The translations under genes and the position numbers were made by a program. The notes below the pieces were generated by a model that saw only the letters and a program-made list of their open reading frames with translations, did not search any database and was not told the DNA's origin. Positions 4,103 to 17,576 of a stretch of DNA of 17,884 bases are shown here, one piece after another. The stretch lies in assembly GCA_027063065.1 (NCBI GenBank), contig JAMOSO010000013.1, forward strand, positions 1 to 17,884. Reading direction: 5' to 3'. Position 1 is the stretch's first letter, and each line of letters opens with the position of its first letter. Source of the DNA: Planctomycetota bacterium. GTDB lineage: Bacteria > Planctomycetota > JAMOSO01.

Positions 4103-5638
4103 TTAATCCGTATTCAGTAAAGTACTTTTTTTAGAACCAATAGTCAGTAACATTTCAATATTATTGGTTGTTTTTTCTATAGCGTTACTCATAAATTCCA
4201 TAGCGCCTTGGGTGCTTTTTTCACTTACGACTTTGCGTAATATATGCATATTTTCTAATTCTTCAGGTACAACTATCAACTCCTCACGACGGGTACCAGA
4301 TGGAGCAATATCAACTGCTGGCCATATACGTTTATTGGCTAATTTACGGTCTAAATGGATTTCCATATTACCTGTACCTTTAAATTCCTCAAAGATTACC
4401 TCATCCATTTTAGAGCCAGTATCAACTAATGCTGTAGCTAAAATAGTTAAGCTACCTGCCGTCTCACCTACAATATAACGAGCTGCTCCAAAAAAACGCT
4501 TGGGGCGGGTTAAAGCCATCGCGTCTATACCGCCTGATAAAATACGCCCTGTATGTGGGGTTTCCGCATTATATGCTCTACCTAAACGGGTGATAGAATC
4601 CAATAAAATTACTACGTCTTTACCAAACTCTACTAAACGTTTAGCCTTTTCAATACACATTTCTGCCACTTGCACGTGACGATCAGTAGGTTCATCAAAT
4701 GTTGATGCAATAACCTCTCCATCAACTTCTCTACGCATTTCTGTAACTTCTTCTGGGCGTTCATCAATTAATAAAACCATTAATTCACACTCGGGATTAT
4801 TTTGCGAAATACTAGCCGCAATATCCTTTAAAAACATAGTTTTACCCGTACGTGGAGGCGCAACAATCAAACCCCGTTGACCTTTGCCAATAGGTGTAAT
4901 CAAATCCATTAAACGCATACCCATAGAATCTTTACGTTCTAAAATTAAACGCTCTGCTGGAAATTCTGGTACCATTTCTTCAAATGGCGTTTGTTTAAAA
5001 ATAGTTGCTGGTGCTTCTCCATTAATCGCTTCTACTTTTAACATTGCAAAGTAACGCTCTCCGTGTTTAGGAGGACGTATTTGCCCAGCTGTAAAATGAC
5101 CTGTTTTTAAACCAAAACGCTTAATTTGTGAAGGTGATACATAGATATCATCAGCACAAGGTAAATAATTTTGCTCGGAACTGCGTAAAAAACCATAACC
5201 ATCTGGTAAAATTTCTAACACGCCCTCACCGTATAATAATCCAGCCTTGTGCACACGAGCTTTCATAATAGTAAAAACTAAATCTTGTTTACTAAGACCC
5301 TTGTAGTCTTCTAGTTCTTCTTCTTCAGCCAATTTATACAATTCTGTAGAAGGCATTTTTTGCAATTCTGCAACGTGCAAAACATTTTTTTTAGCCTCTT
5401 CATAACGAGCGTTTACTGCTTCTGGATCGGCGAGAGCTTCTTGCTTTAATTGCTCGCGCTCACTATCACAACGAGATGCTAGTTCACCCGATACGTGAGG
5501 GCCTGCTGCTCGATTGCCATTTACAGGACGATTATTGCCAGTACGACCTCGTGGCGCATAATATTTTTTGCGACCTCGAGGCACAGTTTGTGGTCTTGGT
5601 CCCGGTTTTCTGGCGGCGGGTTTGCTTGGTTCAGCCAT
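4103..5638 (-). CDS. rho: Transcription termination factor Rho
   Basis: Rho is the hexameric RNA-dependent ATPase/helicase that ends transcription of untranslated RNA. The order is: a basic, Pro/Arg/Gly-rich N-terminal extension (residues 1-45), a Rho_N helical domain (about 93-130), a cold-shock-like RNA-binding domain (about 133-205, with DGYGFLR and DIYVS), and the RecA-type ATPase. Walker A is [12 protein letters not shown] (256-267, Lys266), Walker B is VVILLDS (Asp347), and [21 protein letters not shown] contains the Q-loop region. At 511 residues it exceeds the 419 of E. coli because of the N-terminal extension; such basic insertions in other phyla add RNA contacts. The ATG directly follows the coaE stop (TAGATG), with GAGGAG inside coaE as ribosome binding site, so translation is coupled. 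Confidence 0.98.
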
Positions 5639-6202
5639 CTACTTTATCTCCTCTAGTAGTGCTAATATATCTTGGTGTAATTTGTCAATGGAGCCATCAT
5701 TCATAAGAATACTATGGCAATTTTTTCGTTTTGCATGATATGGTTCTTGATATTTTTCTCGTTTAAGAAAGTCTTGCTTGTTTACTCCTAAGCGGGTTAT
5801 TCTTTGACATTTGGGAGCATCAACAAACCAGCATAGATTACAGATAGTATTTAAATTTAACTCAAAAAGAAGCGCGGCATCAATGACCACTTTGTCATAT
5901 TTTTTCGCCTTTTTAATCACTTCCTGCTTTAATATTGGGTGAGTTATTTTGTTTAAACATTTAACTGATTCTGCACTGGTAAATGCCCTGTGAGCAAGAA
6001 CTTGGCGGTTCACAACCTTATTCTCAACCACATCCTCCCCAAACTCTTGGGTAAGCATATACATTATTGTAGGATTTTGCAAGACTTTATGTCCAATTTT
6101 ATCAACATTAATAATATTAAAATTCAAAGAAGCTAAAAAGTTACTAACTGTAGATTTCCCAGCTGCTATAGTGCCTGTTAAACCCAAAACTATTTTTTGC
6201 AT
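5639..6202 (-). CDS. coaE: Dephospho-CoA kinase
   Basis: CoaE phosphorylates the ribose 3'-OH of dephospho-CoA with ATP, the last step of coenzyme A synthesis, in the cytoplasm. The 187-residue product is of near-normal length. The P-loop is GLTGTIAAGKST (residues 7-18; the usual form is GLTGGIGSGKS). The CoA-binding Asp is in INVDKIGH, the lid-region motif is VVIDAALLFE, and there is a conserved Arg-rich tail (QRITRLGVNKQDFLKRE). The end is shorter than in many homologues but shows no frameshift. It sits between polA (4 bp gap) and rho (0 bp gap). From memory, this polA-coaE-rho order matches Chlamydiae and relatives. Confidence 0.96.
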   Translation of the reverse strand: MQKIVLGLTGTIAAGKSTVSNFLASLNFNIINVDKIGHKVLQNPTIMYMLTQEFGEDVVENKVVNRQVLAHRAFTSAESVKCLNKITHPILKQEVIKKAKKYDKVVIDAALLFELNLNTICNLCWFVDAPKCQRITRLGVNKQDFLKREKYQEPYHAKRKNCHSILMNDGSIDKLHQDILALLEEIK

Positions 6203-6206
6203 TACA

Positions 6207-8912
6207 CTATTTAATATCCATCCAATTTAAACCGGCAGAAATAGATACCTTTAATGGTACATCCAAGCCACCCACTGACTCCATAATATTTTTGATAAAA
6301 GATAATTCTTGTTCAACTTGATTTTTAGGCACTTCAAAAACCAATTCATCATGAATCTGAATTAATATTTCTGCATTAGTTTGACCACTTAATCTCGCTC
6401 TATGCAAGTCCACCATCACGCGCTTTATTAAATCTGCTGCGCTACCTTGAATAACAGTATTAACAGCGGTACGCTCGGCAAATGCACGCATATTTTTATT
6501 AGTTGCATTAATATCATTTAAAACACGTTGCCGACCAGACATTGTTGTAACCAAACCATTCTTACGAGCATCTTCAATAGTGCTATCAATAAAAGTCTTA
6601 ATACTAGAAAAATAATTAAAATAAGCATCTATAAATTCTTGAGCATCACTGCGACTCATACCTGTTTCTTGTGCTAGACCAAAGGCCTGTTGCCCGTAAA
6701 TAATACCAAAATTTACCGCTTTAGCATTGCGTCTTTGCTCTGAAGTAACCTGATCCAATGGTACAGAACAAACCTGAGAAGCGACCAAGGTATGAATATC
6801 TAAATCCTCATTAAACGCTTGTACTAATTTTGCATCTTTTGAAAAATGAGCCAATACACGCAATTCTATCTGAGAATAATCCGCTGCGATTAAAACCTTA
6901 TCGGCACAGCTAGGTATAAACGCTCTGCGAATAGATCTGCCTAGCTCTGTACGAATCGGAATATTTTGCAAATTTGGATTGCGACATGATAGACGCCCTG
7001 TTTCTGTACCTGTTTGCATAAAAGATGTATGCAATCTATTGGTGTAAGGATTGATTAATTCTGGCAACGCTTCTATGTACGTACTTTGCAATTTTGCATA
7101 ACTGCGATATTCTAACATTAAACGACATATCTCATGGTGCTTGGCCAACTTAGTTAAAACAGACACATTAGTGGAATATCCTGTTTTGGTTTTTTTGGGC
7201 GCTTTAATGCCCATTTTTTCAAATAAAATCTCACCCAATTGTTTTGGCGAATTTAAATTAAACTCCTGAGATGCTTCAAGGTAAATTTCCTGAGTTAAAT
7301 CGGTCAACACTTCTGCTAAAGCACTACCCATCTCTTTTAAAATATCAATATCTAAAGCTACGCCACCATATTCCATATCCATCAAAACATCAACTAATGG
7401 CATCTCTAAATCTGTAAACAAATCTAATAATTGACGAGTTTGCAAATCACGTTTAAAAACCTCATACAATCGCAAGCAAGCATCTACATCTTCACAAGCA
7501 TAAGAGCCAACCTTAGCTACTGGCAATGTATCCATGGTAACCTCTTTTTTGCCCTTTCCAATTAAATCAACAGTGGGTGTTTTGCCTAAATGCAAATATG
7601 TCGACACTAATGCGTCTAACTTGTACACTCTACTACTAGGATTTAACAACCATGCGGCTATCATAGTGTCAAATACCACGCCAGAAACTTCTATACCCAC
7701 ACTTCGCAATACCTGCTTATCAAACTTAGAATTTTGTGCTACCTTCAAAATATTGTCATTAGAAAACAACTGCTTTAATGGTTGGGCAATATCTTGCCAA
7801 GCCACTTTCGGTTGCCCTTCTGGGCTTAAAATAGGTATATAAACTGCCTTAGATGTTGTTTTACAAAACGATATACCAACAATTTGAGCACCTGGTATTT
7901 GCAAAGAATCCGTTTCTAAATCAAACGCCCAACACTCCGCTCTAGATAACTCATTAATCACCGCTAACGCCTGAGAGGTGTTTTGACAGATAACATACTC
8001 GCCATTAATCACTTCTTCCGCAACTTTGTCATTAGCATCTAATATTTGAGTTGGCGAACTACTAGGATCTAACAAATAGCGTAAAGTTTTAAGATTATAT
8101 TTCTCAAAAAACTTTGTAACATCTGCCTTTGGCTTAAAGGGAAACTTATATTCTTGCATATCTATATCCATAGATACATCACAGTCAATTGTTACTAATT
8201 TATGGGACAAAAAAGCATCTTCACGATATTTCAATAAATTCTCTTTTAATTTTTTCGCCGTGATTTTATCTATATTCGCATAAATACCCTCTAGTGAACC
8301 ATATTCTAATAATAGTTTAGTTGCAGTTTTAGGACCAACCGAGCGAACCCCTGGCACATTATCAGAAGTATCTCCAGCTAAAGCTAAAAAATCAATAAAT
8401 TGCTTTGGGGTTAAAGACGTTTCGGCCAACATATCTTCTTGATTGATTATTTTTTTCTTAGCATATTTATACATCTTAATATTATTATCTATTAATTGCA
8501 TAATATCTTTATCTTCTGTAACAATAAAAACATCACAATCTTGACTAGATGCTCTTTTTGCAATTGTACCAAGCAAATCATCCGCTTCAAAACCAGCTTT
8601 TATAGCTGTAGGGATACCCAAAACTTCAACTGCCTCTTTAACCAATGGCAACTGCACACGCAATTCTTCTGCAATAGGCTTTCGATTAGCTTTATAGTCG
8701 GGATACATTTCATGTCTAAAATTTTTACCCCCTGGATCAAATACTATAACCAAATAATCTGGTTGGCATTGACCAACTATCACATTTAAAACCTTTAAAA
8801 AGCCAAACAAAGCATTAGTAGGGATTCCTTCAGAATTAGTTAATGGCGGAGTAGCATAAAAAGAACGGAAAATATAAGCCGAAGCATCGACCACATAAAA
8901 AGATGGTGACAT
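6207..8912 (-). CDS. polA: DNA polymerase I
   Basis: A complete three-domain DNA polymerase I of 901 residues, which removes RNA primers and fills gaps in replication and repair. The 5'-nuclease domain is at about residues 5-285 (VVDASAYIFRSFYA, FEADDLLGT, GDTSDNVPG). The 3'-5' proofreading domain (about 300-490) keeps its metal ligands: Asp331 and Glu333 (FDLETDS), Asp398 (NSKFD), and Tyr471 with Asp475 (YACED). Proofreading should therefore be active, unlike in many Gram-positive and thermophilic Pol I. The polymerase domain has DYSQIELR (Asp678), the O-helix RRNAKAVNFGIIYG and QIHDELVFE (Asp855). A TTG four codons upstream is in frame, but ATG 8912 is preceded at good distance by GAGG (8919-8922). 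It is first in the operon, under the promoter at 8960-8988. Confidence 0.98.
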   Translation of the reverse strand: MSPSFYVVDASAYIFRSFYATPPLTNSEGIPTNALFGFLKVLNVIVGQCQPDYLVIVFDPGGKNFRHEMYPDYKANRKPIAEELRVQLPLVKEAVEVLGIPTAIKAGFEADDLLGTIAKRASSQDCDVFIVTEDKDIMQLIDNNIKMYKYAKKKIINQEDMLAETSLTPKQFIDFLALAGDTSDNVPGVRSVGPKTATKLLLEYGSLEGIYANIDKITAKKLKENLLKYREDAFLSHKLVTIDCDVSMDIDMQEYKFPFKPKADVTKFFEKYNLKTLRYLLDPSSSPTQILDANDKVAEEVINGEYVICQNTSQALAVINELSRAECWAFDLETDSLQIPGAQIVGISFCKTTSKAVYIPILSPEGQPKVAWQDIAQPLKQLFSNDNILKVAQNSKFDKQVLRSVGIEVSGVVFDTMIAAWLLNPSSRVYKLDALVSTYLHLGKTPTVDLIGKGKKEVTMDTLPVAKVGSYACEDVDACLRLYEVFKRDLQTRQLLDLFTDLEMPLVDVLMDMEYGGVALDIDILKEMGSALAEVLTDLTQEIYLEASQEFNLNSPKQLGEILFEKMGIKAPKKTKTGYSTNVSVLTKLAKHHEICRLMLEYRSYAKLQSTYIEALPELINPYTNRLHTSFMQTGTETGRLSCRNPNLQNIPIRTELGRSIRRAFIPSCADKVLIAADYSQIELRVLAHFSKDAKLVQAFNEDLDIHTLVASQVCSVPLDQVTSEQRRNAKAVNFGIIYGQQAFGLAQETGMSRSDAQEFIDAYFNYFSSIKTFIDSTIEDARKNGLVTTMSGRQRVLNDINATNKNMRAFAERTAVNTVIQGSAADLIKRVMVDLHRARLSGQTNAEILIQIHDELVFEVPKNQVEQELSFIKNIMESVGGLDVPLKVSISAGLNWMDIK

Positions 8913-8959
8913 AAGGTACCTCAAGGACTGTAATTTGGGGATTATTTGAATTACAAAGC

Positions 8960-9110: not shown

Positions 9111-9139
9111 TTGACAAAATGTGATTTCTTTCAAATAAT
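9111..9139 (+). promoter_or_regulatory. Near-consensus sigma70 promoter of the envelope cluster
   Basis: TTGACA (9111-9116, perfect -35) and AATAAT (9134-9139, five of six) are separated by the ideal 17 bp. Transcription would start near 9146, about 28 nt before the TTG start codon at 9174. AT-rich DNA upstream (9000-9090) could act as an UP element. The promoter sits inside what would be an extended reading frame starting with TTG at 9111, which rules that longer start out. The quality of this promoter suggests strong, housekeeping-level expression of the four genes downstream. Confidence 0.8.
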
Positions 9140-9173: not shown

Positions 9174-10268
9174 TTGAATAACGAACGTGGATCAGCACAG
9201 ATAATATTAATTGTTTTCGTAGTTCTAACCCTTATTTTAAGTGGTGCAACTTATTCTTTATTTATGGCTAAAGAAAAATCTGCCAAGATAGAGGCTAAAC
9301 AAAAAGCGCAAATAGACAATAGTTTAAATACTATGAAAAAACGTGAAGGAACTATTATAGACCTTAACGAAAAAATCAGCGAACTAACTCGCAACTATAA
9401 TGATTTAAATCAAAGATATATTGATAACGTGCGTGCATTAACTGAAACTCGCGGTGAACGCAATGAAGCTTTGCAAGCACGAGATGAAGCAGAAAACTTA
9501 TTAGATGAAGAAAAAGTAAAATTTCGTGATGAATTGACAGAACTAGAAAAACAACTGGCTCAAAATCGTGCTACAATGGAAAAATTAGAAGAAGAAATGG
9601 CTACTAAAGAAGAGCAACTAGAAGAAAAAGCTGCAGATTTAAAAGCTCAATCATTTGAAGAAATTAAAAAAGCTAAAGATAGTGTAAGTAACGCTCAACA
9701 AGAAATTAATCAATTAAAATCACGATTAGCCCACCTATCGTCTGACGAAGAAGTAAATTTTGATAAACCAACTGCAGATGGCAAAATCATATTTGCTGAT
9801 TTTGACAATAAATTTGTTATTATTAATTTAAATGAATCTGATGGTGTAGTGCCTGATATGCCATTTGATGTGTTTGAATCTGGCAGTGGTGAAAACACCA
9901 TCAAAAAAGGTCAAATACGCATTAAACAAGTTAAAAAAGACGTAAGTTATGCTGTTGTTGAAAATCTAAAAGATAACTTAAGACCCATTATTTCTGGTGA
10001 CTTAATTGGCAACCCTGTATTTACACAGGGCATAGATCGTAAAAAAACTTTTGTATTAGATGGAGAGTTCACCACATATAATACTGGTGAAATTGCTGCA
10101 TTAATTAAAGATTTTGGAGGCATAGTAGCCGAAGAAATCACTGTAAAAACTGATTTTGTAGTAGTGGGACTTAACCCAATTATGTTAAGAGAAGCAAAGC
10201 GTTTGCATATACCACTTATGAAAGAGGAACAATTATATCGTTTTATCCAGAAACGTTCTGGCAAATAA
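9174..10268 (+). CDS. Membrane-anchored coiled-coil protein with C-terminal BRCT-like domain
   Basis: Function unknown. The 364-residue product starts at TTG 9174, chosen because GGAG (9163-9166) lies 7 nt upstream and the promoter overlaps any earlier start. One membrane helix (about residues 9-30, IILIVFVVLTLILSGATYSLF) is followed by a long Glu/Lys-rich coiled coil (about 33-190). Next comes a beta-rich domain (about 194-284: DGKIIFADFDNKFVIINLNES, DGVVPDMPFDVF, IISGDLIGNPVF) that resembles small barrels with a 'Gv..G..f.Vy' turn. The C-terminal 75 residues look like a BRCT domain: KKTFVLDGEF, IAALIKDFGGIVAEEITVKTDFVVVG, REAKRLHIPLMKEEQLYRFI, with the paired glycines and the 'TD.vv.G' strand seen in NAD-dependent DNA ligase. 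The basic flank after the helix favours a cytoplasmic C-terminus. It is the first gene of the cluster. Confidence 0.8.
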   Translation: MNNERGSAQIILIVFVVLTLILSGATYSLFMAKEKSAKIEAKQKAQIDNSLNTMKKREGTIIDLNEKISELTRNYNDLNQRYIDNVRALTETRGERNEALQARDEAENLLDEEKVKFRDELTELEKQLAQNRATMEKLEEEMATKEEQLEEKAADLKAQSFEEIKKAKDSVSNAQQEINQLKSRLAHLSSDEEVNFDKPTADGKIIFADFDNKFVIINLNESDGVVPDMPFDVFESGSGENTIKKGQIRIKQVKKDVSYAVVENLKDNLRPIISGDLIGNPVFTQGIDRKKTFVLDGEFTTYNTGEIAALIKDFGGIVAEEITVKTDFVVVGLNPIMLREAKRLHIPLMKEEQLYRFIQKRSGK

Positions 10269-10278
10269 GGAGATCAGT

Positions 10279-10632
10279 ATGAAAACTAAACAAAATTTAT
10301 TAGTTGCTTTGGCTGTTGTTATTGCCTTAATCACTGGCTACTCGCTTAAACCAGAACCTGCGCTTGCCCAAGAAAGCTCCAATGGATATATATGTTTTAA
10401 ACTTGATTCGGGTAGTGGTAAAAGTGAAGATTCTGCCTTTGCTTTAATTAGCACCAACCAAAAAACTATTATGATTTATAAAGTCAAATACCAAAAAGGC
10501 AAAAAAACATCGCTTGAATTAGATGCAACTAGATCTTTTAAATTTGATGAACAATTAGAAGAATGGAAAACAGAGCCAAAACTATCTATATTAGAGGCAC
10601 AAATCAAAAAAATGGCTGCTAAAAGGAAATAA
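10279..10632 (+). CDS. Small secreted protein of unknown function
   Basis: I do not recognise a named family. The 117-residue product has a clear signal peptide: Lys-containing start, hydrophobic LLVALAVVIALITGY, and a likely signal peptidase I site after PEPALA (residue 30). The mature part, about 87 residues, looks like a few beta strands (GYICFKLDSG, AFALISTNQKTIMIYKV, KKTSLELDATRSFKFD) followed by a short helix (SILEAQIKKMAAKRK). The pattern of a value-reporting beta segment followed by 'A.RS...D..L..W' recalls small PVC-group proteins, but that is memory, not a demonstrated match. It begins 10 bp after the BRCT-like gene with a good AAGGAG (10267-10272) and lies 3 bp before the next gene, so it is translated from the same mRNA. 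It is likely periplasmic, possibly a partner of the anchored proteins beside it. Confidence 0.75.
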   Translation: MKTKQNLLVALAVVIALITGYSLKPEPALAQESSNGYICFKLDSGSGKSEDSAFALISTNQKTIMIYKVKYQKGKKTSLELDATRSFKFDEQLEEWKTEPKLSILEAQIKKMAAKRK

Positions 10633-10635
10633 ACA

Positions 10636-11532
10636 ATGGCCGATTTTATCTCATTTGAAGAAGCCAAACAAGAACTAGGATTAAGCGATAAAGATTTACA
10701 TTCTTTTATTGCCCAAGGCAAACTTTCGCCTAAACGCCAAGATGGTGTTGTACAATTTCCTGCTGATGAAATCAACGCTCTCAAAGAAGAACAAAACGAT
10801 AGTATTTTGCTAGATATTGACGAAGAAGCCATCGTTTTAGATTTTGCAGATGATGAAATCATCTTAGAGATGCCAGATGATGAGCCAATCGTAATTGATG
10901 AACCTGAAATTATTATCGAAGAGCCAGAAGAAACTGTTATCCTAGAAGAACCAACAATTAGTCTTGACGAGCCAGAAACTATATCCTTAGAAGAACCTGA
11001 AAAAATCCATTTAGAAGATTCTAGCTCAGATACTGTCATCATTCTTGATGATGAAGAAGAAGACAGTAATAGCGATACAATTGTTTTAATCGATGAAGAT
11101 GAAACCTCAGAAACTCAAACCATTGTTTTAAATGATGACGCTGAAAGTGATACCATTTTATTAGCCGATGAAGATGACGATAATGCGGCTACTGAAACCA
11201 TTTCTTTAACTGATGATACTAATGCCGCTACAACTCAAAGTGATTTAACCATTGCTATGAGTGAAGAAGAAATGGTTGCGGAAAATGATGACGACTTAGC
11301 TATGGAATTAGCTGGTGGAGGACAAGTTAGCGCTATACCCGAAGGAGCATATGTAGTTACAGATATGCCACCTAGTATGATTGTAACTATACCTTTAATT
11401 TTAAGCTTTGTAATTTTAATCTTTGGTGGTATGATTTTATATCCCATGGTTAGCAATGCTTCCCCTGAAGTTGGGGATCCTTTTGTACCTAGTTATCTTG
11501 TTAGTTTACTTGATACTGTGCGCAATTGGTAA
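10636..11532 (+). CDS. MerR/excisionase-like HTH protein with acidic repeat linker and C-terminal membrane helix
   Basis: Function unknown. The order in 298 residues is as follows. Residues 1-52 look like a MerR/excisionase-type winged HTH (ISFEEAKQELGLSDKDLHSF, IAQGKLSPKRQDGVVQFPADEINALKEE). About 54-225 are extremely acidic and repetitive: an EPE-type section (EEPTISLDEPETISLEEPEK) and then a run of units like SDTIVLIDEDE, TQTIVLNDDA, SDTILLADEDD and TETISLTDD. One membrane helix follows (about 248-270, MIVTIPLILSFVILIFGGMIL), then a 28-residue tail ending SLLDTVRNW. By topology the HTH faces the cytoplasm and the tail the periplasm. The architecture recalls HTH-plus-membrane proteins I associate with Planctomycetes, Verrucomicrobia and Lentisphaerota. 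The stretch also appears as a long Ser-rich frame on the opposite strand, which is only the mirror of the acidic codons. AAGGA (10623-10627) serves as ribosome binding site. Confidence 0.82.
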   Translation: MADFISFEEAKQELGLSDKDLHSFIAQGKLSPKRQDGVVQFPADEINALKEEQNDSILLDIDEEAIVLDFADDEIILEMPDDEPIVIDEPEIIIEEPEETVILEEPTISLDEPETISLEEPEKIHLEDSSSDTVIILDDEEEDSNSDTIVLIDEDETSETQTIVLNDDAESDTILLADEDDDNAATETISLTDDTNAATTQSDLTIAMSEEEMVAENDDDLAMELAGGGQVSAIPEGAYVVTDMPPSMIVTIPLILSFVILIFGGMILYPMVSNASPEVGDPFVPSYLVSLLDTVRNW

Positions 11533-11563
11533 ATCATAATTTTATAATAAAGCAGGAGTTTAT

Positions 11564-12262
11564 ATGTTATCCCTATTACACAAAGGTTCTTTATTGGCCT
11601 TGGTTGGTTTAATGGCCGTTGGTTGTTCTAGCAAAGAAACAGAATTATTAAAACAAAAAGTAACTCAACAAAACATTATCATTAAAGAATATGAGGCAGA
11701 AAATCGTGCCCTTTCTCAAGAAAATAACATTAATAAACGCCGTAATGAAGAATTAGAACTAAAAAACAGGTACTTATCTGATCAGGTCAATACTTTAAAT
11801 ATGCGTTGGCAAAAAGCTAACAAAGACCATCAAGAATTACTAGCTAGTTTGCAAAATGGAACTACTAAAGGCGTTATTGAATGGGATGCAGATGCGCATG
11901 TATATCGTGGCAATGGCGATATTATTTTTATGCCTGGAGAATCTAAATTATCTAAAAAAGGTAAAGCTGCTGTATTAAAACTTGGTAATGCATTAAAAAA
12001 TAAAGATGTAATTGCCGAAATTGCTGGTAATACAGATAATACACCTTTAAAACGTACCAAGAAAAAATGGCTTGATAATTTTGGCTTATCCGCCGCTCGC
12101 GCTCTTGATGTTTTGCGTATTTTAAAAGACGCTGGTGTATCAGAGAAAAAACTTTACATAACAGGTTATGGTCAAAACCGTCCATTAGCTAGCAACAAAA
12201 CTAAGCAAGGTCGCAAACAAAACCGCCGAGTTGATATTTACATCCATCCTGCAAATAAATAA
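11564..12262 (+). CDS. OmpA-family peptidoglycan-binding lipoprotein with coiled coil
   Basis: A 232-residue lipoprotein with a signal peptide ending in the lipobox AVGC (lipidated Cys21). A coiled coil runs from about 25 to 95 (ELLKQKVTQQNIIIKEYEAE onward). A C-terminal OmpA/Pal/MotB-like domain (about 115-230) follows. The domain shows NTDNTPL (the position of the conserved Asp), LSAARALDVLRIL and the end KQNRRVDIYI, with the Arg that binds meso-diaminopimelate in the family. It should therefore tie its membrane to the cell wall. The residue after the lipidated Cys is Ser, not Asp, consistent with outer-membrane sorting by proteobacterial rules, which may not hold here. It is not Pal itself as far as I can judge, because no tol genes are near and Pal lacks this coiled coil. 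AGGAG precedes ATG 11564; it is last in the cluster, followed by a terminator. Confidence 0.88.
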   Translation: MLSLLHKGSLLALVGLMAVGCSSKETELLKQKVTQQNIIIKEYEAENRALSQENNINKRRNEELELKNRYLSDQVNTLNMRWQKANKDHQELLASLQNGTTKGVIEWDADAHVYRGNGDIIFMPGESKLSKKGKAAVLKLGNALKNKDVIAEIAGNTDNTPLKRTKKKWLDNFGLSAARALDVLRILKDAGVSEKKLYITGYGQNRPLASNKTKQGRKQNRRVDIYIHPANK

Positions 12263-12275
12263 AAATTTTATAAAT

Positions 12276-12314
12276 AAAAAAATGCAGGTGCGATAATCAC
12301 ACCTGCATTTTTTT
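12276..12314 (+). terminator. Rho-independent terminator ending the envelope cluster
   Basis: A perfect 15-bp inverted repeat (12276-12290 with 12300-12314) has a 9-nt loop. The GC-containing core TGCAGGTG/CACCTGCA is flanked by A5+ on the left and T7 on the right. This is a textbook intrinsic terminator and would also work from the opposite strand. It separates the OmpA-like gene from rnpA. Confidence 0.93.
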
Positions 12315-12348
12315 ATCCTCACTGTTGATCATAATGCGGTAGCTCTAA

Positions 12349-13040: not shown

Positions 13041-14744
13041 ATGAGAATACGATCAAAACTAACAGCGTTATTATCGGTCTTTATATTAAGTCCATTGTTA
13101 GGTGTCAGCATTTATGCAGTGCATAGTATTAATCAAGTAATCAATATCAGCACATCACAAAACGCATCAACTAACCAAACTATTTTAGATAGCTTAAATG
13201 AACTATCCAGCACTATTAATATCACATTGCTTATTATAGCTATTATTTTATGTACGATTAGCTATTTGGTTAGTGGTTTTATTGTAAAAACTCTAACTAC
13301 AATAAAAGAATTTACATCTAAAATTTCTGCAGGTGATTTAAGTACAAAAATTGAGAATATAAAAGACAATGAACTGGGTAGTCTTTTTAAAACACTAATG
13401 GATATGAATAATTTTATTGGTGATACCATGGGACGAATGCGTGCCGAATCAAAAATGGTACACTCCTCAGCGGAATCTCTAGGCAAAGAGGCTAAAAAGG
13501 TAGAAGCCAATATGTTAAATGTAGGTGAAAACTCTGGTGCAATTGCAGGTGCCGCAGAAGAATTATCCATAACTTCACAACACGTTTCTGACTCTGCCCG
13601 TGAAACAAACGACTCAGTAACATCAGTTGCAGCAGCTATTGAAGAAATGAGCAAAGCTATTAGTGAAGTTACTAAAAACTCAAATAAAGGTGCTGATTTA
13701 GCTAATTTTGCCGACGAAAAAACTCGTAATGCAATGCAAATTATCGAACGTCTAAAAAGCTCGTCCGATGAAATTGGTAAAGTTATGGATGTAATCAACT
13801 CTATTGCGGGTCAAACTAACTTATTAGCTTTAAATGCTACCATAGAAGCAGCAAGTGCTGGAGAAGCCGGCAAAGGCTTTGCAGTTGTTGCCAATGAAGT
13901 AAAAGAACTAGCTAGACAAACTGCCACTTCAACAGAAGATATTCGACAAAAAGTAGATGAAATTAGAAGCAATACAGAAGAAGTCGTAGAAGCGATGAAT
14001 GAAGTTGCAATTGCCAATACCGATGTGATAGGTATATCAAACGCCATTGCTGCCGCCACTGAAAAGCAGACCGTTACAGGTAAAAATATTGACGACTTAA
14101 TGGTTAGGACTGCAGGATTAGCTCAAGATACTGGTCGTCAAATGGACGAAATTGCAACAGCATCAAATGAGGTAGCAGAAAAAATTGTAGGCATTTCCAA
14201 GCTAACTAATGAAACAATGGAACAAGCCAAACAAGTAACTAAAAGCTCAGAACAATTAACTTTAATGGCTAATGAAATGCAAAAAGCCACCAACGCATAT
14301 AAATTACCCGATAAAGAAATCAACTTTATCACTTGGGGACCTGAATGGGAAAATGGCTTAAAAGTATTTGATGACGAACATAAAGTTTTAGTTAAATATA
14401 TTAATCAACTTTATAGTGGTATGTGTTTAGGCTCTACTAGAGATAAAGAAGAAAAAATTCTAGAAGGTCTTTTAGATTACACTAAAAAACACTTTGCCCA
14501 TGAAGAAGAATACTTTGCTAAAGTTAATTACTCTGGTACAGAGGCACACCTTAAAATACATCGTGATTTAGAAGGTACTGTATTAGATTTTGTTGAAAAC
14601 TTTAAAAAAGACGGTGCTGAAGTTGATGCAAATTTAATGACCTTTTTGCGAGATTGGCTAATTAATCATATCAAAAAAATAGATAAAAAATATCTAAACG
14701 AGTTAAGCACAGTAGCTGCAAATGCAGTTGCATTAGATATGTAA
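13041..14744 (+). CDS. Methyl-accepting chemotaxis protein with C-terminal bacteriohemerythrin domain
   Basis: A 567-residue chemoreceptor controlling CheA/CheW. Two membrane helices (about 8-28 and 61-82) enclose only some 30 residues, so there is no real periplasmic sensor. HAMP (about 80-133) leads to the methylation/signalling coiled coil, whose tip (about 256-296) has [20 protein letters not shown] and [17 protein letters not shown]. Residues 430-552 form a hemerythrin domain with all seven di-iron ligands in place: His447 (DDEHK), His484 and Glu488 (HFAHEE), His503 and His507 (HLKIH), His543 and Asp548 (HIKKID). Known relatives, such as Desulfovibrio DcrH, use this domain to sense oxygen or redox state, so the input is probably cytoplasmic O2. 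No CheR/CheB tether is present at the C-terminus. AAGGAG precedes the ATG. It ends in a terminator shared with the convergent transporter gene. Confidence 0.95.
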
Positions 14745-15911: not shown

Positions 15912-17576
15912 ATGCTAAAAACACTTACTATTAAAACAAAAATCTATGCAATTGTGATAACATCTATTTTATCACTAATAGTCATCGGTGTATTTTTTAT
16001 GACTAACATGAATGACATCAAAAACCTAGAAACTTCTCTATTAACGATTACCGAAGCTCAAAGCCATTTTATAAATTTAGAAAATAAGCATTTAAAATGG
16101 AAAGCTAAAGTTAGTGATGCTTTGCTTAATAATAACCTAACTCAATTAAAAATTAAAACTGACCCGCATACATGCGCATTAGGTACATGGTTTTATGGCA
16201 AAGGACGCTCAGAACTTATAGCTTTAGTACCGCAAATAGCACCTATTATCAACAAAATAGAGCTACCGCATACCTCATTACACCATTCTATCAAACCTTT
16301 AAAAGAAGCTTACCAACAATCAGGTCGCACAGGTGCTATTAAGTATTTTACCAATCACACAGAAAAACATGTTGCAAAAGTCGGGGAAATTTTAAATCAA
16401 GCTAATGCAATATTAAAAAGTCAAAAAGAGCATTTGACCAAAGTAGTTAATACAAAAGTTACTCGCGCTAAAAATTTCGTTATTAGATTTTTAATTATAG
16501 TAATAATATTAATGACTATTTTAGGCATTATTTTATCCTCATCTATTATTAAGCCAATGCAGAATATGATGCAATTATTAAGTAAATTAGCAGGTGGAAA
16601 TTTAACTATTAAAATGCCAGATGACGAACTAAATACTGAACTAGGTTATTTAGCTAAAAACATTAATATATTTTCACAAAAAATTCATATTCTGGTGCAA
16701 AACACTAAAAACAATATTACAACATTAGTTTCATCGTCAGAACAACAACTTTCAACTAGCTTACAGATATCCTCAGCCGCAAACCATATTAATGAAGAAT
16801 CAACATCAGTGGCAGCAAGCACAGAACAAGCATCTACAAATATCACAAATATTTCAGATGCTGCTAATGATATGACAGACTCTGTCTCTACAGTCGCCGC
16901 TGCTATTGAAGAAATGACAGCGTCTATAACTGATATTGCCCAAAACTGTCAGAAAGAATGTGCAATTGCAAGCAATGCTGAAAATCAGGCTAAAGAAACT
17001 AATAAAACTATGAAAACACTAGAAAAATCTGCAGAAGAAATAGGTAAGGTATTAGACGTTATTAAAGATATAGCTGCTCAAACTAATCTATTAGCTTTAA
17101 ATGCCACTATTGAAGCCGCCAGTGCAGGAGAAGCTGGCAAAGGCTTTGCTGTAGTAGCTAATGAAGTAAAAGAACTAGCCAAACAAACAGCCACAGCTAT
17201 TGAACAAATAGAAGGTCAAATTACTAATATGCACACTAATACCAATAATGCAGTAAATGCGATAGAAAATATCACCGAAGTAATTGCTGATGTAAATAGT
17301 ATTTCACAATCTATTGTTGTAACAGTAGAAGAACAATCCTCAACTATTAATGAAATATCACGTAGCGTTACTGACGTGAACAATAAAAGTAATGATGTGT
17401 CACAAAATGTTCAAGAATCAGCCAAAGGCATACAAGATATTTCTAAAAGTATATCTGGATTCAATACATCTATCACTAAAATTACAGGCGAGGTAAACCA
17501 AGTAAAATCAGGCGCCGATGATTTATCCACAATGGCAGAAAATCTACAACAATCAGTGAGTCAATTTATAGTTTAA
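15912..17576 (+). CDS. Methyl-accepting chemotaxis protein with periplasmic CZB-like zinc-binding domain
   Basis: A 554-residue chemoreceptor. Helix 1 (about 12-31) and helix 2 (about 190-212) enclose a periplasmic helical domain of some 155 residues. In it stand the pieces of a chemoreceptor zinc-binding (CZB) motif: His60 and Trp63 (KHLKWK), Cys88 ([11 protein letters not shown]), and His120 with His124 (HTSLHHSI). In described CZB proteins three His and one Cys hold zinc, and the Cys responds to oxidants such as hypochlorite or to zinc itself. HAMP (about 210-265) and the signalling domain follow; the tip [20 protein letters not shown] (391-410) is nearly identical to that of the hemerythrin receptor. 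There is no CheR-tethering pentapeptide at the end (QFIV). A very strong AAGGAGGG precedes the ATG; a hairpin follows the stop. Confidence 0.94.

Follow-up and report, generated by a model that had tools for sequence, protein, structure and literature searches.

A conserved envelope operon of Planctomycetota with an OmpA-like lipoprotein, and its BRCT-containing membrane neighbor

Does a tightly packed run of four genes in a planctomycete genome code for one envelope system, or does it bring together components that are otherwise separate? The run, hereinafter p1 to p4, lies in a 17,884-nucleotide stretch of DNA (the window) from a 2.13 Mb genome (71 contigs, 90% complete) of a deep-branching planctomycete, which is the sole member of its class in the genome set compared. 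A reading of the window from sequence alone had placed the four genes, 3–31 bp apart, between one promoter and one terminator, and this layout holds. Of the phyla which that reading had put forward for a search, the genome falls in Planctomycetota, the label borne by most of its named relatives, and not in Lentisphaerota. The intergenic gaps p1/p2, p2/p3 and p3/p4 are 10, 3 and 31 bp, respectively, and the sigma-70-like element TTGACA-17-AATAAT upstream of p1 (9111–9139, forward strand) is the only match to at least 11 of the 12 consensus positions on either strand of the entire window. Downstream of p4 is an intrinsic terminator (12274–12316, forward strand) that is very stable by folding (−23.3 kcal/mol, z = −8.8) and is not picked up by a simple scan. 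The start codon of p1 is TTG. To its left, polA, coaE and rho lie on the reverse strand (4103–8924) as divergent neighbors, an arrangement seen in many genomes of the phylum, and to the right of p4 are rnpA and yidD.

Elsewhere the window codes for a fusion of an outer membrane phospholipase A1 domain with a Sel1 repeat (1177–2469), an integrase-core (rve) ORF at the contig edge that is apparently part of an insertion-sequence transposase (425–976), and two chemoreceptors (13041–14744 and 15912–17576), one with a terminal hemerythrin domain and the other with a zinc-binding CZB domain. The divergent promoter region was also considered as a replication origin and rejected: the window has a single DnaA-box match as against 3.2 expected, no match is intergenic, and dnaA is on another contig.

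The first gene, p1 (9174–10268, forward strand), codes for a protein with an N-terminal TM segment, a helix or coiled coil of about 180 residues, a FlgT_C-like barrel and a BRCT domain; these occupy residues 8–189 (helix), approximately 200–283 (barrel) and approximately 290–360 (BRCT) in an AlphaFold2 model with a pLDDT of 86. The BRCT-like end proposed earlier is recovered by Pfam both in the window protein (E = 7.5e-10) and in 25 of 34 family members, and it resembles the BRCT domain of LigA in structure (Z 11.5, rmsd 1.5 over 73 residues, 32% identity) as well as in profile comparisons (E = 5e-14). While it shares both fold and sequence features with the single BRCT domains of LigA and RFC1, it differs from them in being borne on a membrane coiled coil and in having lost the Thr/Ser-Gly and Lys that we take to be the phosphate-pocket residues of those domains. 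The Thr before the invariant Gly, as in LigA, is retained in just one of 34 p1 homologues, and the GSK motif with its lysine is absent. The barrel of the predicted structure in turn matches FlgT, a component of the LPHT ring of flagella (Z 10.3, rmsd 2.9 over 81 residues), and the p1 profile also matches TsaP; however, the identity to FlgT is 8–9% and no flagellar or pilus gene adjoins p1 in the window. In 28 of 34 homologues the charges flanking the TM segment favor an N-in/C-out topology, which suggests that the BRCT end may lie outside the cytoplasm in most of the family; the window protein, with +3 after the TM, does not follow this pattern.

A profile search at E ≤ 1e-20 finds p1 in 254 of 294 genomes of the phylum (counted by hand from the table). 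We prefer this number to the 291 of 294 obtained at 1e-8, because the latter is inflated by matches to the BRCT domains of LigA. The homologues commonly face away from rho-coaE-polA and have tatC and cinA downstream, and p1 is thus a separate, nearly phylum-wide family with its normal site beside these genes. Tandem duplication is frequent among p1 homologues.

The remaining three genes tell a different story. At the end of the run, p4 (11564–12262, forward strand) codes for a lipoprotein with a coiled-coil spacer, and its assignment as OmpA-like and peptidoglycan-binding stands on a Pfam OmpA match (E = 2.3e-17 in the window protein) and on the conservation, in 29 of 29 aligned members, of the lipobox Cys and of the Asp and Arg that bind peptidoglycan. 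A lipobox, a spacer and an OmpA-like domain in which these Asp and Arg residues are kept are features that p4 shares with Pal. It differs from Pal of the Tol-Pal system in that its operon lacks tolQ, tolR, tolA and tolB and instead has p2 and p3 as partners. Moreover, it scores 39–40 bits against the curated Pal model, short of the cut-off of 125. No other protein of its genome matches the Pal model, a count that covers Pal-model matches rather than all OmpA-domain proteins, and a canonical Pal above the cut-off was found in none of 40 genomes of the phylum.

The p2 gene (10279–10632, forward strand) codes for a small protein with a signal sequence (PALA-Q) followed by a predicted four-stranded sheet in the AlphaFold2 model. 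Neither the window protein nor its family matches a Pfam family, and a fold search against the PDB gave nothing below an E-value of 0.5, the best rows being blades of beta-propellers. The p3 protein (10636–11532, forward strand) has an HTH_17 domain, a long acidic linker and a C-terminal TM segment. The HTH domain claimed for it was confirmed through the family: although the window protein stays below the cut-off (E = 0.0015), HTH_17 is recovered in 17 of 17 members, with a best E-value of 2e-8, and is the only family common to them. Many members show the same succession of HTH_17, a TEPTIIL motif, the long acidic linker and the TM segment, after which the tail is very short; a search of the p3 profile against the PDB returned no match. 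The HTH domain of p3 is distinctive in its charge, with a mean of −2.1 as compared to +3.7 in 27 control HTH_17 domains taken from this genome and from close relatives (P = 3e-10), and it is acidic in 24 of 32 p3 members as against 1 of the 27 controls. Judged by domain charge, p3 therefore lacks the basic DNA-contacting surface expected of HTH_17 domains that bind DNA, and its recognition helix reads DEEELKRLVS in place of the SxxTVYRW of other HTH_17 domains. The acidic character of the p3 domain, unlike that of the controls, argues for protein docking.

Profile searches detect p2 homologues in 220 and p3 homologues in 241 of the 294 genomes, and the first single-sequence searches had already turned up the two side by side in other genomes. 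Among the best 150 matches listed for each, p2 immediately precedes p3, in the same orientation, in 90 of the 95 genomes with both; within these listed matches from the 95 genomes no nearby p2/p3 pair occurs in any other arrangement, and the same-strand adjacent pairs have a median gap of 108 bp. The next gene is usually p4, with the full p2-p3-p4 order present around 45 p3 genes in a set of 80 named loci that were chosen by p3 similarity and are in some cases interrupted by contig ends. Some loci have a second p4 copy or lack p4 altogether; the p4 copies form tandem duplicates in several loci. Given the 90 adjacencies and the 45 complete loci, the order of p2-p3-p4 is under selection rather than a local accident. 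We found no Pfam or NCBIfam family and no open-licence paper describing this gene set, in line with the earlier impression that no such system had been described. As the neighborhood is conserved and no described equivalent was found, p2-p3-p4 is neither a chance gathering of genes that are otherwise scattered singly nor a cluster of already known function. Hence, p2-p3-p4 is a conserved Planctomycetota envelope operon for which we found no earlier description.

Why, then, does p1 adjoin this operon in the window? Single-sequence searches for p2, p3 and p4 around p1 homologues gave no match, a result that the profile searches later reversed for p2-p3-p4. Likewise, an earlier comparison of 40 genomes yielded no p1/p3 pair within 10 kb, and the larger set then gave such pairs in four families: in six genomes p1 precedes p3 by 7.0–9.4 kb, with both genes on one strand. 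Across eight annotated loci, individual ones of which lack a member or have it uncalled, the order is rho, coaE and (polA) in divergent orientation, then p1, tatC, cinA, (dnaA), recG, p2, p3, p4, ksgA and dnaG; the position of dnaA before recG is confirmed by Pfam in two of the eight. The window has rho, coaE and polA divergent, followed by p1, p2, p3, p4, rnpA and yidD, and a position of p3 ahead of rnpA-yidD recurs in one further genome. On the simplest account, the stretch from tatC to recG would have been lost from the window locus or never have entered it. Since p1 lies 7–9 kb upstream in four other families, we read the window as a contracted ancestral locus rather than a dedicated four-gene machine, in which p1 shares the transcript of p2-p3-p4 because the intervening tatC-cinA-dnaA-recG stretch is gone. 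The four-gene envelope set that the sequence-only reading had proposed is thereby cut down: a neighborhood search across Planctomycetota keeps p2-p3-p4 together, and a single four-gene system is not supported, because p1 is a separate family that elsewhere lies 7–9 kb off or in another neighborhood. As an observation in its own right, rho, coaE, polA, tatC, cinA, dnaA, recG, ksgA and dnaG together with p1–p4 make up a conserved superlocus in four planctomycete families.

We propose that two conserved Planctomycetota units, the p1 family and the p2-p3-p4 operon, have been brought together here. In the operon, p4 would be an outer-membrane lipoprotein gripping peptidoglycan, p3 would be anchored in the inner membrane with its acidic HTH-fold domain serving in the cytoplasm to dock proteins and not to bind DNA, and p2 would be their small secreted partner in the periplasm. 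Their joint role would most likely be to link the inner membrane with the wall and the outer membrane, or to sense the state of all three, a lineage-specific equivalent of Pal/OmpA-type anchoring; p1 would be a separate membrane coiled-coil family beside rho-coaE-polA and tatC. Compartments, contacts and tethering are inferred here from gene content, conservation, gene order, domains and the key residues kept or lost, and we give about an even chance to p2-p3-p4 being a tether or sensor that spans the inner membrane, the periplasm and the wall or outer membrane. A bolder version, in which the operon replaces Tol-Pal-type outer-membrane tethering in Planctomycetota and p1 reaches across the periplasm as a coiled coil (~27 nm) bearing an extracytoplasmic BRCT domain recruited to envelope architecture, is speculative and, in our estimate, unlikely to hold in full.

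The domain layout of p3 also invites comparison with other HTH proteins of the membrane. It shares a cytoplasmic HTH-fold domain and a single TM segment with RodZ, but its HTH is of the HTH_17 rather than the Xre type, its linker is long and acidic, only a very short stretch follows the TM, and Pfam finds no RodZ domain in the window protein or its family. The resemblance to ToxR/ToxS and CadC, in which an HTH-TM protein is encoded beside a small periplasmic protein, underlies the main rival to a docking role, namely that p3 is a membrane-anchored transcription factor that senses the envelope via p2 and p4 and binds DNA from the membrane. The universal presence of HTH_17 in the family members, the C-terminal TM and the adjoining small periplasmic partner fit such a regulator, and an HTH domain of low charge can still bind DNA. 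However, the p3 domain is of the HTH_17 and not the OmpR type, it is paired with an OmpA lipoprotein, and its acidity relative to the controls, divergent recognition helix and very long acidic linker speak against DNA binding, so that we hold this rival to be somewhat unlikely. The sequence-only reading's own hypothesis was that the genes tie the nucleoid to the wall or form a complex that positions the chromosome. Both the BRCT and HTH folds on which it drew are real, and the replication genes polA, dnaA and dnaG are among the neighbors; yet a link to DNA is not supported, because the phosphate pocket of the BRCT domain is lost (the Thr in 33 of 34 homologues, along with the GSK lysine) and the p3 HTH is acidic, and the charge bias of the p1 family leans toward a C-terminus outside the cytoplasm. 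This makes it the least favored of the functional rivals and quite improbable.

A different kind of partner is suggested by loci in one family with near-complete genomes, where p2 occurs without p3 or p4 directly after a cluster of PilM, a pair of unassigned genes for membrane proteins and a gene for a TPR-secretin (five or six loci). Hence, p2 can work apart from p3 and p4. Together with GspE/GspF genes approximately 4–6 kb upstream in 30–38 of 110 loci, this makes possible a link to secretion or pili, in which p2-p3-p4 would be an accessory module that anchors a type II secretion system or a type IV pilus to the wall; the FlgT-like barrel and TsaP match of p1 and the presence of several such ATPases in the genome are consistent with it. 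However, the neighbors in the window and in the eight superlocus loci are housekeeping genes, and the GspE/GspF association falls within a single extended gene order that is conserved, so that it could reflect synteny and nothing more, leaving this alternative decidedly unlikely. That p1–p4 might simply be co-transcribed neighbors of unrelated function would accord with p1 usually being elsewhere and with p2 standing alone in one family, but the p2-p3 order is almost never broken, and we accord this explanation little probability.

The envelope of Planctomycetota is unusual, their cell division does without FtsZ, and for many of their conserved genes no function has been assigned. In one planctomycete species, 108 phylum-specific essential genes have no known function (PMC10632474). 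The p2-p3-p4 operon, whose order is maintained in many families, along with the near-universal membrane BRCT protein encoded beside polA, rho and tatC, offers named candidates for the attachment of the outer membrane and wall in this phylum. The operon represents a known type, the OmpA-lipoprotein envelope module, and its neighbor is an unusual membrane protein with a BRCT domain.
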